Assembly: GCF_014274465.1 (NCBI RefSeq)
Contig: NZ_CP060394.1
Location: 620,001-684,000 of the forward strand
Direction of reading: 5' to 3'
Length of the DNA: 64,000 nucleotides
From: Alloacidobacterium dinghuense
Lineage (GTDB): Bacteria; Acidobacteriota; Terriglobia; Terriglobales; Acidobacteriaceae
Shown: in pieces, positions 7,766-10,812 of the stretch
Layout of the letters: every line of letters starts with the position of its first letter
How positions within the stretch are numbered: the stretch's first letter is position 1
Made by a program: the position numbers and the translations under genes
The notes under the pieces: generated by a model
Databases searched by the model: none
Told to the model about the DNA's origin: nothing
What the model saw: only the letters and a program-made list of their open reading frames with translations

Positions 7766-7773
7766 CAGGCTTC

Positions 7774-8332
7774 GGTAGTGTCTCAGTTTGGATTTTAGGG
7801 ATTAACCTGCGCTGCGAGGGCGCCGTGAGCGTATGCTACGCGCATCTGCATGATAACGTCGATAGGATTCATGGCGGGCGCCTTGCTGGAATCCTGGCCG
7901 GACCCGGCCTTGGTTGTGTCATTCTTCGCCCTGCTCGGTGTGGTCCCCGGGGCTGCCGGCGGGGCCCTCGCATTCGTCAGGGCTAAGGAACGGCTGTGGC
8001 AGCGCCTTGTGATCGGGGCCCTTGCCGGGGCACTGACCAGCTGGGTCGTGTTTTCCTCGATGCGGGGCCCGGACGACACCATCAGAGCACATGTTTTTTG
8101 GTGCATCGTGGGCGGCTACGCCGGGGCTGATGGGATTTCTATACTGCTGAAGGCCCTCGGACGAGAGAAATAACCTCTAAAGTCTCTGCTGGCAGAATGG
8201 CCCCGAGAATATACCCTCAGTTTGCCAATCCAGCGATTTCCTCAAAGCTCCAGACGTGATGAGATAACCCGGTTCTCTCGCCGGAGTAACGCCCGGCGGC
8301 AAGGGTTGTGGATTTCAAACTGAGACACTACC
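7774..8332. mobile_element. Transposase-less IS1-like cassette (mobile insertion cassette)
   Basis: A 559-bp unit bounded by perfect 17-bp inverted repeats, GGTAGTGTCTCAGTTTG at 7774-7790 and its complement at 8316-8332. It is flanked by an exact 8-bp direct duplication, CAGGCTTC, at 7766-7773 and 8333-8340. The end sequence shares GGTAGTGnnnCAGTTT with the neighbouring IS1-like element at 8415-10622. There is no transposase inside, only one small membrane-protein gene. The structure fits a mobile insertion cassette moved in trans by a related transposase. Ends and duplication are seen directly; trans-mobilisation is inference. Confidence 0.85.
7850..8173 (+). CDS. Small membrane protein, holin-like, cassette cargo
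   Basis: A 107-aa protein with three hydrophobic spans (about residues 18-42, 52-70 and 82-98) separated by a basic loop RAKERLWQR. It ends GGYAGADGISILLKALGREK. Small size, three spans and a Gly-rich third span followed by a charged tail resemble phage holins of the superfamily III type, but the similarity is too weak for a firm call. ATG 7850 lacks a clear ribosome site; ATG 7871 has TAGGA closely upstream and would give 100 aa. It is the only gene between the inverted repeats, so it is cargo. No lysin or spanin lies nearby. Confidence 0.6.
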   Translation: MITSIGFMAGALLESWPDPALVVSFFALLGVVPGAAGGALAFVRAKERLWQRLVIGALAGALTSWVVFSSMRGPDDTIRAHVFWCIVGGYAGADGISILLKALGREK

Positions 8333-8414
8333 CAGGCTTCCTGCCGGGGATGCAGATAGGCCTTGCTGCCGCAAGGCATCGCACTCACTTTGTTCGTACT
8401 GGTCCTTCGGCTTC

Positions 8415-8442
8415 GGTAGTGGTGCAGTTTACTTTTCCACAG
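8415..8442 (+). repeat. Left terminal inverted repeat of IS1-like element
   Basis: Begins GGTAGTGGTGCAGTTT and ends TTTCCACAG; pairs with 10595-10622 (25 of 28 identical). It contains the transposase stop codon. Confidence 0.93.
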
Positions 8443-9322
8443 ATTCAAGTGCCCTGCGAATCAAATCCTGATCGATAGTGGACTTGGCTGCGACTTTCTT
8501 GGGAATCAGAGCGCACAGTTCCTCTAGTGTCCAGATGTGATCTGTAAGCCCTGCTTGCATCGCTGGCGTCACTCTCAAGGTCTTGTGAACCTTGCAGAAG
8601 TTGTAATACATGAAGTGCAGCGCGACAGCATGAGCGTGATTCTCCTGTTTCTTCGAGAATCCATTAGTCAGCCGGGTAAAGCGGCGCATATGCATCCGCA
8701 TGGTTAGATTCTGGCGTTCTACAAAACTGGTAGAAACGTGCTTTGGATCAGGATTACCGCATACAGTTTTCATGTCCGTTCCAATAATGGCTGAGGGGGA
8801 ATATCGCCGTGCTTCTTCTTTGTCTGGAGCGCCGTAGATTTTGTGGAGTTGCGCATAATCGACTTCCGAGCCAAAGGCCGCTTCAATCGCATCTGGGTAT
8901 GCTTTCAACGCGTCTGTAGTGATCTGCGGCCTTCCAACAATCCGATCCGCACAATCTTGGATAAATTCAAACGTACAGCCTTTATCCCGCAGCCCGACGA
9001 GGTATGAAACGCAGAGCTTGGTATCGGCGTCAATTCCGGTCCAGGTCCAGGCATCGCCCCAGCCTTCCTGCTTCTGTTCGGGTGAAGCTGCCTTCTTCTT
9101 TGCGCCAACAAAAGACCAGATTTCATCGCATTGCAACCGCTTTACGCGAAGTCCGCGCACGTTCTGGTCGTGATATTCAGCACAGGCAATACCAAGATCG
9201 CGAAGCAGGTTCAGAACTGTGTGCTTAGCAACGCCCGTCATGCGGACGATTGCATTGATGCTGTTGCCTTCTACTAGAGCTGAGACGACTTGGACGCGCT
9301 TTGCTGTGCTTAGCCGATTCAT
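8429..9322 (-). CDS. IS1 family transposase
   Basis: A 297-aa single-frame DDE transposase. An N-terminal helix-turn-helix (residues 1-45, STAKRVQVVSALVEGN then TGVAKHTVLNLL) binds the ends. The catalytic core has Asp66 in LQCDEIWSFV, Asp137 in ITTDALKAY and Glu202 in SFVERQNLTMRM; the last is the IS1-type E-R-x-N-L-T-x-R signature. Unlike classical IS1 there is no InsA/InsB frameshift, as in the long single-ORF IS1 subgroup. ATG 9322 is chosen because GGGGGAG lies 5 bases upstream. The gene looks intact and so may be active. It is transcribed divergently from the P63C gene across an 82-bp region with four 9-bp repeats. Confidence 0.93.
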   Translation of the reverse strand: MNRLSTAKRVQVVSALVEGNSINAIVRMTGVAKHTVLNLLRDLGIACAEYHDQNVRGLRVKRLQCDEIWSFVGAKKKAASPEQKQEGWGDAWTWTGIDADTKLCVSYLVGLRDKGCTFEFIQDCADRIVGRPQITTDALKAYPDAIEAAFGSEVDYAQLHKIYGAPDKEEARRYSPSAIIGTDMKTVCGNPDPKHVSTSFVERQNLTMRMHMRRFTRLTNGFSKKQENHAHAVALHFMYYNFCKVHKTLRVTPAMQAGLTDHIWTLEELCALIPKKVAAKSTIDQDLIRRALESVEK

Positions 9323-9334
9323 CAAATCTCCCCC

Positions 9335-9406
9335 TGCAAGCATATTTAGAATAATGCTTGCATTCCTATTTTGCAAGCATTATTATCAAAATCGAGGTGC
9401 AAGCAT
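9335..9406. promoter_or_regulatory. Four TGCAAGCAT repeats between divergent genes
   Basis: The 9-mer TGCAAGCAT occurs at 9335-9343, inverted at 9354-9362, and again at 9372-9380 and 9398-9406. The last copy runs into the ATG of the P63C gene, the first lies just upstream of the transposase ribosome site. Starts are 19, 18 and 26 bp apart. This is what a repressor operator array controlling both genes would look like. The binding protein is unknown. Confidence 0.65.
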
Positions 9407-10451
9407 GAGCGACGAATCGACTGGCAAAGCAAAAGGCGGGTTTGCTAGAGCTGAGGTTCTTAGCCCGGAAAAGCGCAGCCAGATTGCAAAGAAGGCCGCG
9501 CTAGCTAGATGGGGAGACTCAGAAGCAGTGGACGCCGCAATTCAGCCCACGCATAACGGACAGATTCATATCAACGGGTTGGACATCGACTGTGTTGTCC
9601 TGAGCGATGGTCGAAGGGTGATATCGCAACGAGCGGTTGGACGCGCATTAGGTCGAAGACGTGGGGGAGAGGATTATTACCGTCGAAAGACCGGAAGCTC
9701 TGGCGGAGAACTGCCCGAATTTCTAGGGGCAAAAAACCTAAACCCTTTTATTTCCGATGAGTTACGCATGGCGGTGAGCAAGCCTATTTTTTACGGAGAT
9801 AAAGGAAGAGTCGCGTATGGGATTGAAGCGCAGTTGCTTCCCCAGATTTGCGATGTGTGGTTGAAGGCTAGAGATCATGGTGCGCTAAAAACAATTCAGC
9901 TTCCAGTGGCGCAACGAGTGGAAATACTGATGCGCGGTTTGGCCCATGTCGGCATCATTGCGCTCGTTGATGAGGCAACAGGCTATCAAGAAGTGAGGCC
10001 GAAAGATGCCCTTCAGGCATTCTTAGAAAAGATCATCGCTAAGGAACTAGCTGCATGGGCCAAGAAATTCCCCGACGAATTTTACGAGAACATCTACAAG
10101 CTGAAGAATTGGCCATGGCCTGGGATGAAAAAGAATCGCTACAGTGTTGTTGCCTATTACACCCGCGACCTCGTATACGAGCGCCTCGCCCCTGGTCTAC
10201 TCAAAGAGCTTGAGAGCAAGAGTCCGAAGAATGATAGCGGCAACCGGACGAACAAACTGCATCAATGGCTAACAGACGATATTGGTAACCCGATGCTCGC
10301 ACAGCATCTGCACTCAGTTATCATGTTTCAGCGGTTAGCGATTGCCAGTGGATATGGTTGGCATCGGTTTCTAAAAATGGTCGATCAGGTGATGCCGAGG
10401 CGAGGCGCAACTCTGGAAATTCCGTTCCCAGTGCCGGACGAGATCGATTAA
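9405..10451 (+). CDS. P63C domain-containing protein, IS cargo
   Basis: A 348-aa protein. The N-terminus carries the SPEKRSQIAKKAALARW segment often seen before P63C domains. The main body (about residues 50-270) matches the family pattern, including SQRAVGRALGRRRGG, LPEFLGAKNLNPFIS and HVGIIALVDEATGYQ. A C-terminal part ending HQWLTDDIGNPMLAQHL follows. P63C proteins occur in phages and mobile elements and some carry antirepressor-like DNA-binding regions; their biochemical role is not established. ATG 9405 is supported by GAGGTG at 9394-9399. It looks more AT-rich than its chromosomal neighbours, in keeping with acquisition. Its stop overlaps that of the opposing 39-aa gene. Confidence 0.88.
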   Translation: MSDESTGKAKGGFARAEVLSPEKRSQIAKKAALARWGDSEAVDAAIQPTHNGQIHINGLDIDCVVLSDGRRVISQRAVGRALGRRRGGEDYYRRKTGSSGGELPEFLGAKNLNPFISDELRMAVSKPIFYGDKGRVAYGIEAQLLPQICDVWLKARDHGALKTIQLPVAQRVEILMRGLAHVGIIALVDEATGYQEVRPKDALQAFLEKIIAKELAAWAKKFPDEFYENIYKLKNWPWPGMKKNRYSVVAYYTRDLVYERLAPGLLKELESKSPKNDSGNRTNKLHQWLTDDIGNPMLAQHLHSVIMFQRLAIASGYGWHRFLKMVDQVMPRRGATLEIPFPVPDEID

Positions 10452-10567
10452 TTCCGCTCCGTAGCTTCCTTGACGATCCGCGCAGCGGCTTGGTTCACGT
10501 CCTCGCGGATCGCTTTCTTCTTTGCCGCCTTCTTCGGTTTGGGCGCCAACTTCTTCTTAGTGGCCAT
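10448..10567 (-). CDS. 39-aa lysine-rich small protein, IS cargo
   Basis: A short frame reading MATKKKLAPKPKKAAKK and then a helical part with EDVNQAAARIVKEATERN. About ten lysines sit in the first 18 residues, like an H1-type nucleic-acid-binding tail. The second half resembles a small hypothetical-protein family I recall with a DVNQAAARIV core, which is why I regard it as a gene. It lies convergent to the P63C gene and the two stops overlap (TAA at 10449-10451 on plus, TAA at 10448-10450 on minus). The ribosome site is weak (GGAG 13 bases upstream). Function unknown. Confidence 0.6.
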   Translation of the reverse strand: MATKKKLAPKPKKAAKKKAIREDVNQAAARIVKEATERN

Positions 10568-10594
10568 ACTCTAAGTTTAACTCCGTCCTAAAAG

Positions 10595-10622
10595 CTGTGG
10601 AAATTCAAACTGCACCACTACC
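10595..10622 (-). repeat. Right terminal inverted repeat of IS1-like element
   Basis: Read on the minus strand it begins GGTAGTGGTGCAGTTT and ends TTTCCACAG. The inner bases GAA replace ACT of the left end, which gives the three mismatches. Confidence 0.93.
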
Positions 10623-10630
10623 TCGGCTTC

Positions 10631-10812
10631 GCTCAGGATGACATTGGGTAGAGGTTCGTGCTTTCCCACCCCTTCGGCAAGCTCAGGGCAGGCTCTGTCG
10701 CAGAAAGCGCGACAGGATGAGGCACCCTTTTTCTTGCTAGTGCTCAAGAAAAGCAGGTCCTTCCCCTTCACTACGTTCAGGGTCAGGATGACATCGATTC
10801 GCGGCCGTGTGG
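10631..10812. repeat. Interspersed repeat DNA (CTCAGGATGAC type)
   Basis: Starts with GCTCAGGATGAC and contains further GC-rich hairpin units (AGCGCGACAGGATGAG, GTTCAGGGTCAGGATGAC). With the IS1-like element and one target copy removed, 8341-8414 joins directly to this stretch and matches the repeat at 22905-23041 (GCAAGGC, ACTTTGTTCG, CTTCGCTCAGGATGAC in the same order). No gene seen. Confidence 0.6.

Follow-up and report, generated by a model that had tools for sequence, protein, structure and literature searches.

Why does a small transposon with an IS1-type transposase carry a P63C gene, a kind of gene that also occurs in phages, and what might this gene do for its carrier? The question is raised by a 2,208-bp element of Alloacidobacterium dinghuense, located at 8415-10622 of a 64,000-nucleotide stretch (hereafter the window; positions 620,001 to 684,000 of contig NZ_CP060394.1). 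The account that we consider reasonably probable is that of a transporter insertion sequence (tIS) with an exchangeable slot, whose passenger in this copy is P63C with its operator array, a self-regulating unit that would bring a benefit of the phage-exclusion or addiction type. It builds on the observed boundaries and architecture of the element, the exchange of cargo among its relatives, the repeated capture of P63C, the conservation of the repeats at P63C genes and the link between these repeats and a hairpin in the protein.

Boundaries and layout of the element

An initial annotation, made from the sequence alone, had described a cargo module carried by a transposon whose boundaries are certain, and this description is borne out by the ends of the element, its target-site duplication (TSD) and the position of P63C between the ends. 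The terminal inverted repeats are arms of 31 nt (8415-8445 on the plus strand, beginning with GGTAGTGGTGCAGTTT, and 10592-10622 on the minus strand) that are 87% complementary and match at 25 of their first 28 bases, and the exact 8-bp TSD TCGGCTTC flanks the element at 8407-8414 and 10623-10630. The end pattern GGTAGTGNNNCAGTTT, with up to two mismatches allowed, occurs four times in the window as compared to 0.69 expected, and four occurrences were reached by none of 100 shuffles. Between the arms lie the intact open reading frame (ORF) of the transposase (8429-9322, minus strand), whose 3' end is inside the left repeat, the divergent gene for the 348-aa P63C protein (9405-10451, plus strand) and, at the right end and convergent with P63C, an ORF for a 39-aa lysine-rich microprotein (10448-10567, minus strand). 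The starts of the two divergent genes are separated by 82 bp, and a predicted operator array of four 9-bp TGCAAGCAT sites (9335-9406) lies in and near this spacer. Of the 2,208 bp, P63C and the small ORF together take up 1,167 (53%), rather than the two thirds first estimated. A composite transposon, with cargo held between two IS copies, is ruled out, as there is one transposase and the ends directly bound the cargo. The element sits in CTTCGGCTTCGCTCAGGATGACA-type sequence that appears REP-like by eye (window 8400-8414 and 10623-10700).

The transposase matches PF03400 (DDE_Tnp_IS1) with 28 bits, above the cut-off of 24.1, and has no match to PF12762 (DDE_Tnp_IS1595) at E 0.1, which rules out membership of the IS1595 family. 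Residues D69, D140 and E205 (numbering of the 8429-9331 translation) are invariant in all 27 aligned transposases and presumably form the catalytic triad. We placed the start of the protein at the ATG at 9322 because the relatives begin with MNRL or similar residues.

A conserved backbone with exchangeable cargo

We searched 396 Acidobacteriota genomes with the P63C protein and the transposase and picked 60 stretches by hand from the matches. A transposase match was present in 49 of these; both ends were found in 34, and the other 15 stand outside the element counts. The 34 relatives have ends of the GGTAGTG type or near it and measure 1.9-4.9 kb, a size range that misfits the earlier statement that IS1-family elements normally hold the transposase only. 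Their TSDs are exact over 8 bp in 29 cases and over 9 bp in two, match at 7 of 8 positions in two and are missing in one (L066), counts that hold partly by construction since matching TSDs helped to pick the ends; the end pair of L112 is moderately alike. The A. dinghuense genome itself (6.27 Mb, one contig) gave a single match to the P63C domain and four to the transposase, of which two are short.

With a profile built from 23 proteins of the same elements, a small basic companion protein was detected in 28 of the 34 relatives as compared to none of 70 flanks of equal total length. Its consensus reads approximately D.NQ.A..IV..AT, followed by GGLKGGKARA..LS..KR.EIA.KAA..RW, and in 19 of the 28 cases it is encoded on the minus strand by a frame that ends at most 75 bp from the right end. 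By eye, the 39-aa ORF of the window looks like the initial half of the companion, and a short form is likewise present in two sister elements, L095 and L120; by this resemblance, the ORF appears to be a shortened version of the companion. A single-sequence structure model of the companion (pLDDT 68.5) was too poor for use. We rejected the idea of a companion split between the 39-aa ORF and the N-terminus of P63C, each of which resembles one half, because L095 and L120 have the short companion without P63C and phage P63C proteins also possess the N-terminal hairpin described below. The GGTAGTG ends, the transposase and the companion constitute the backbone of these transposons, and the middle is an exchangeable cargo slot. 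As a conserved part of the elements, the companion also offers a handle for finding them.

Exchange of the cargo is most readily seen in the window element, L095 and L120, which have common ends and the short companion and contain three different cargoes. L095 comes from another genome and encodes a transposase 70% identical to that of the window; its contig starts inside the element, of which only the right end, GGTAGTGGTGCAGTTT, is present, and its cargo is a gene combining helix-turn-helix (HTH) and M78 domains with a HigB-like neighbour (named by eye). L120 belongs to the genome of the window and has ends with two and one mismatches, 6 of 8 matching duplication bases and a decayed transposase (79% identity over a 52-aa fragment); it carries a YhaV toxin gene (46 bits) and a Phd/YefM-like partner (21 bits, below the cut-off). 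Altogether, P63C is missing from 31 of 35 elements (the 34 relatives and the window). Two further IS1-like elements of the same genome were noted. One is 1,823 bp long (L296, 1287-3109; genome positions 465286-467108), is flanked by the exact TSD TAAGACTC and holds a transposase remnant, the companion and a HicB/HicA-like pair (genes named by eye). The other (L078, at ~4.37 Mb) has an exact 8-bp TSD and a proteasome-like cargo protein (26 bits), which the proteins of L092, L093 and L106 resemble at their start by eye; that of L093 has no Pfam match.

The cargo set comprised 107 ORFs with a minimum length of 80 aa, among them companions and P63C genes. Considering the 25 families listed in each search (of 44 for Pfam, 42 for PADLOC and 31 for NCBIfam), Pfam yielded HTH_3 in 11 ORFs, M78/IrrE in 5, DUF3467 in 4, P63C and proteasome-like domains in 3 each and Trypsin_2 in 2, with single matches to TIR_2, SocA_Panacea, NYN, SecB, HigB and AAA/nSTAND; PADLOC assigned PD-Lambda-2_B to 4 ORFs and also reported RmrA models, and NCBIfam reported HigA in 5 and MqsA-like proteins in 2. 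No Pfam match over the cut-off was obtained for the tested cargo ORFs of L076, L082, L085, L093, L097 and L101. The control consisted of 106 of the 137 flanking ORFs of the same loci, plus the ORF of a neighbouring cassette described below. These 106 ORFs look ordinary chromosomal (Radical SAM, PEPCK, SAM synthetase and others); among 25 of their 89 Pfam families, HTH_26 and Peptidase_S24 occur twice and the PemK toxin once, and HTH_3, M78 and DUF3467 can each occur at most once because families with two members head the list. Judged by domain content, HTH, M78 and other domains of the toxin-antitoxin/defence type appear to be more frequent in the cargo than in the flanking DNA. HTH and M78 domains are also found in regulators of mobile elements, and "toxin-antitoxin/defence-type" is therefore a reading of the domains. 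If it is true, some of the smallest mobile elements, which at 2-5 kb are easily filed as plain IS1-family transposases, regularly carry genes of this type. A DUF3467-type protein follows an HTH gene in L074 and L083, and probably in L105 and L113 too, and may be a partner of the HTH modules; it was placed singly for L074, and by order and length for L083, L105 and L113.

P63C as a recurrent passenger

We scanned 84,980 species, each represented by one genome, for P63C and analysed the best 80 of 357 relatives, together with the best 80 of 226 viral ones; the ORF is intact in 157 of these 160 loci (L180 is among those that stand outside the hairpin and operator tables). An IS1-like transposase adjoins P63C in 33 and an IS1595-like transposase in 14 of the genome loci, as compared to 1 and 5 of the viral loci, respectively, fragments being included in these counts (e.g. 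L160, L165, L173 and L176). Both ends were found for 20 of the 33 IS1-linked loci, 16 of them with an exact 8-bp TSD. A separate companion protein is present in 24 of the 33, so the recurrent trio of transposase, P63C and small protein for which the initial annotation had proposed to search does exist; no companion match was found among the 19 IS1595-linked loci. P63C is divergent from the IS1-like transposase in 27 of the 33 loci and on the same strand in six (L137, L152, L155, L167, L180 and L203), and beside an IS1595-like transposase it usually lies downstream on the same strand. In L071 (9388-11179), as in 14 of the 80 genome loci, P63C overlaps or adjoins an IS1595-type transposase; the L071 enzyme, used for comparison, matches PF12762 with 121 bits.

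How often P63C changed its carrier can be read from a FastTree phylogeny of 139 rows, near-identical rows having been removed ahead of tree building and of the operator counts. On its 37 rows the IS1 label requires 28 changes, of which well-supported branches force at least 21, as compared to a mean of 32.9 after shuffling (as low in 12 of 500 shuffles); the IS1595 label requires 13, as compared to 18.9, and none of 500 shuffles came as low. P63C has therefore moved between carriers many times. In Mantel tests, transposase and P63C distances are uncorrelated (r=0.02; 789 of 2000 permutations as high; 30 loci), and remain so when only the 21 companion-bearing loci are taken (r=0.09; 390 of 2000), where the transposase does correlate with the companion (r=0.39; 1 of 2000) and P63C only weakly (r=0.19; 38 of 2000). 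The companion therefore belongs to the transposon backbone and P63C is exchangeable; the lack of correlation between P63C and transposase also suggests that P63C is unrelated to transposition. The single unit initially envisaged does not hold up, as its three genes are not co-inherited. Elements with like ends and no P63C (31 of 35), as well as P63C genes away from such ends in phages and elsewhere, both exist, a pattern that had been taken in advance as the mark of a chance association; the association is one of repeated capture, and not a single chance event.

The P63C protein and its repeat array

The P63C domain (PF10546; 107.3 bits, cut-off 26.1) covers residues 207-298 of the 348-aa protein, which is encoded by a single gene and has no other Pfam domain. 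The predicted layout comprises an N-terminal helical hairpin (~7-36), a KilA-N/Bro-N-like fold (~47-195) and the P63C domain. Foldseek returned p63 of phage Mx8, an antirepressor and BRO proteins as the best viral matches, and VIA-align returned Orf22, DdrC, Dachshund, Ski and Mbp1; a sequence search for relatives of solved structure gave none that was convincing (best E 0.042). In PHROG, P63C is family 2384, annotated as "unknown function", and a match to the antirepressor Ant reaches 38 bits. On these models, P63C is predicted to be a phage-type KilA-N/Bro-N-like DNA-binding protein.

The four TGCAAGCAT sites of the window array occupy 9335-9343, 9354-9362 (inverted), 9372-9380 and 9398-9406, the last of which overlaps the P63C start codon. 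An 8-mer present at least three times, as in the 140-bp stretch of the array, was obtained in 2 of 2000 shuffles. The initial annotation had pointed to these 9-bp repeats as possible binding sites, and an array of them proves to be conserved where P63C genes begin, whether these are borne by IS1 elements, phages or chromosomes. Within 320 bp round the start, the 8-mer ATGCTTGC occurs on either strand in 27 of 33 IS1-borne genes (controls, 1 of 228), 27 of 51 viral genes (4 of 362) and 21 of 28 transposase-free chromosomal genes (1 of 211), and in each class it is the top-enriched 8-mer over controls from the same loci. The sequence TGCAAGCA was found in 21 IS1-borne, 22 viral and 12 chromosomal genes of these sets and in none of 19 IS1595-linked genes; a wider operator pattern retrieved a site in one of the latter (L200). 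Exact sites are present in 1 of the 31 elements without P63C (L080) and in 2 of the 4 with it, and from this distribution it follows that the repeats go with P63C. A role of the repeats as IS backbone was rejected on the same count and because TGCAAGC was not seen in the stretches inspected upstream of the L095 and L120 transposases. A scan for sigma-70-type promoters and terminators returned nothing.

The hairpin motif and the repeats tend to occur together. The motif is present in 32 of 33 IS1-borne and 62 of 73 viral proteins, in 25 of 32 chromosomal ones and in 0 of 19 that are IS1595-linked; the IS1-borne count is favoured by the profile, since 9 of its 10 seed peptides came from IS1-borne genes. 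Hairpin and operator occur together in 80 genes, the hairpin alone in 17, the operator alone in 2 and neither in 32 (Fisher p 7e-16, with relatedness ignored); outside IS elements the corresponding numbers are 53, 12, 1 and 13. Phylogeny was controlled for with a FastTree phylogeny from which the N-terminal columns had been left out; of 14 independent pairs, 10.6 agreed and 1.5 were opposed on average (median p 0.02, range 0.003-0.065). The hairpin, or the domain next to it, may be the part of the protein that reads the repeats.

What might P63C do for its carrier?

In the window copy, the slot is occupied by P63C and the predicted operator array that belongs to it. The protein most likely binds the TGCAAGCAT repeats round its own start and thereby represses its own gene; with the array placed between two divergent genes, perhaps the transposase is repressed too. 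As to the benefit for the element, P63C is likely a phage-exclusion or addiction-type gene. Such a role would resemble that of several recognisable sister cargoes and would agree with the phage slot that P63C and bstA both occupy, directly downstream of CI in ST104 and BTP1, respectively (among the upstream neighbours in viral contigs, 48 of 50 were covered by the scan). BstA is the abortive-infection protein of prophage BTP1; according to its description, its N-terminus is DNA-binding (KilA-N by HHpred) and an aba element, formed by 29 bp upstream and the first 34 bp of the gene, is important (PMC8585504). In a more far-reaching version, which we advance tentatively and with more doubt than conviction, P63C would define a new, BstA-like class of phage-exclusion proteins: the hairpin and the KilA-N-like domain would read TGCAAGCAT, the array at the gene's own start would provide both autoregulation and self-immunity, and IS1-like tIS would spread such modules. 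If so, a phage or transposon carrying P63C would be spared and others blocked, and companion-bearing IS1-like tIS would distribute P63C, along with single-module toxin-antitoxin and defence genes, between chromosomes and phages. If the main account is right, this phage gene without an assigned role would acquire a predicted binding site, a candidate domain for reading it and a role open to test.

Other explanations have to be weighed against a self-regulating passenger of benefit. P63C could be a regulator of the transposon alone, which represses the transposase and so makes the element less costly without being of any use to the cell; the position of the array within and beside the 82-bp spacer, the divergent orientation in 27 of 33 IS1-linked loci, the predicted antirepressor/BRO-like fold and the PHROG match to Ant would all fit such a role. 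However, the array also precedes P63C genes of phages and chromosomes that have no transposase nearby. In sister elements whose cargo is different, the stretches inspected ahead of the transposase show no such array, and among the 31 elements that lack P63C a single one has it. Nor do P63C and the transposase co-evolve, and 31 of 35 elements manage without P63C; we regard a purely regulatory role as unlikely.

The variety of cargoes, several without a Pfam match, and the scattered P63C labels on the tree are what one would also see if P63C were a neutral, unselected passenger acquired by imprecise transposition. Yet P63C is found beside two transposase types in 47 of the 80 best loci and in many phyla, and 27 of the 33 IS1-borne genes with an intact ORF retain both hairpin and operator, which is unexpected of a neutral gene and makes this explanation quite improbable. 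A dedicated system of transposase, P63C and small protein, suggested by the recurrence of the trio in 24 of 33 loci, is largely refuted and the least credible of the explanations, given that the companion accompanies cargo of many kinds (in 28 of the 34 relatives), that its short form stands beside HTH-M78 and YhaV cargo, that P63C does not follow the transposase and that the 19 IS1595-linked P63C loci are without a companion match.

A neighbouring cassette

Outside the P63C element, and 82 bp from it, lies a separate 559-bp cassette without a transposase (7774-8332), which we regard as a non-autonomous relative. Its GGTAGTGTCTCAGTTT ends, of the same type as those of the P63C element, match at 16 of 16 positions and it is flanked by the exact 8-bp TSD CAGGCTTC (7766-7773 and 8333-8340). 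The sole ORF (7850-8173, 107 aa) is membrane/holin-like by eye and has no Pfam match. The duplications of the cassette and of the P63C element both end in GGCTTC.

Relation to known systems

The titles and abstracts that we searched contained no description of an IS1-borne P63C or of the companion protein, which is weak evidence, as most subscription papers fall outside such a search. Among phage proteins, P63C is most similar in predicted fold to Mx8 p63 and to phage antirepressors and BRO proteins (the best viral matches in Foldseek), from which it is set apart by being IS-borne and by its combination of hairpin and repeat array. With BstA, as described in PMC8585504, P63C shares the slot downstream of CI, and it would also share a DNA-binding, KilA-N-like N-terminus, predicted for P63C, and a DNA element at its own 5' end. 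In contrast, the two are similar over 27 profile columns only (hhalign probability 4.5), and the aba stretch, as given there, is without TGCAAGCA; together with the absence of a PADLOC match at E 1, the low hhalign probability led us to reject P63C as a member of the BstA family on sequence.

As for the transposon, a DDE_Tnp_IS1 domain, terminal inverted repeats and a target duplication of 8-9 bp (8 bp in the window copy) place the element in the IS1 family and liken it to the single-ORF subgroup, which we take to be the one named ISMhu11-like; its own membership of that subgroup is presumptive. Siguier et al. (2009), cited in PMC3129680, treat the IS1595 family and how it relates to IS1. Similar to the tIS treated in PMC7986276, the window element combines one transposase, IS-type ends and a target duplication with a passenger gene inside the ends that is apparently unrelated to transposition, and the same backbone is found with other passengers (31 of 35 elements without P63C). 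It differs from them in its IS1-type transposase, its recurrent small companion protein, the apparent enrichment of its relatives' cargo in toxin-antitoxin/defence-type genes and a P63C gene that brings its own repeat array. The window element is an intact IS1-type transporter IS.

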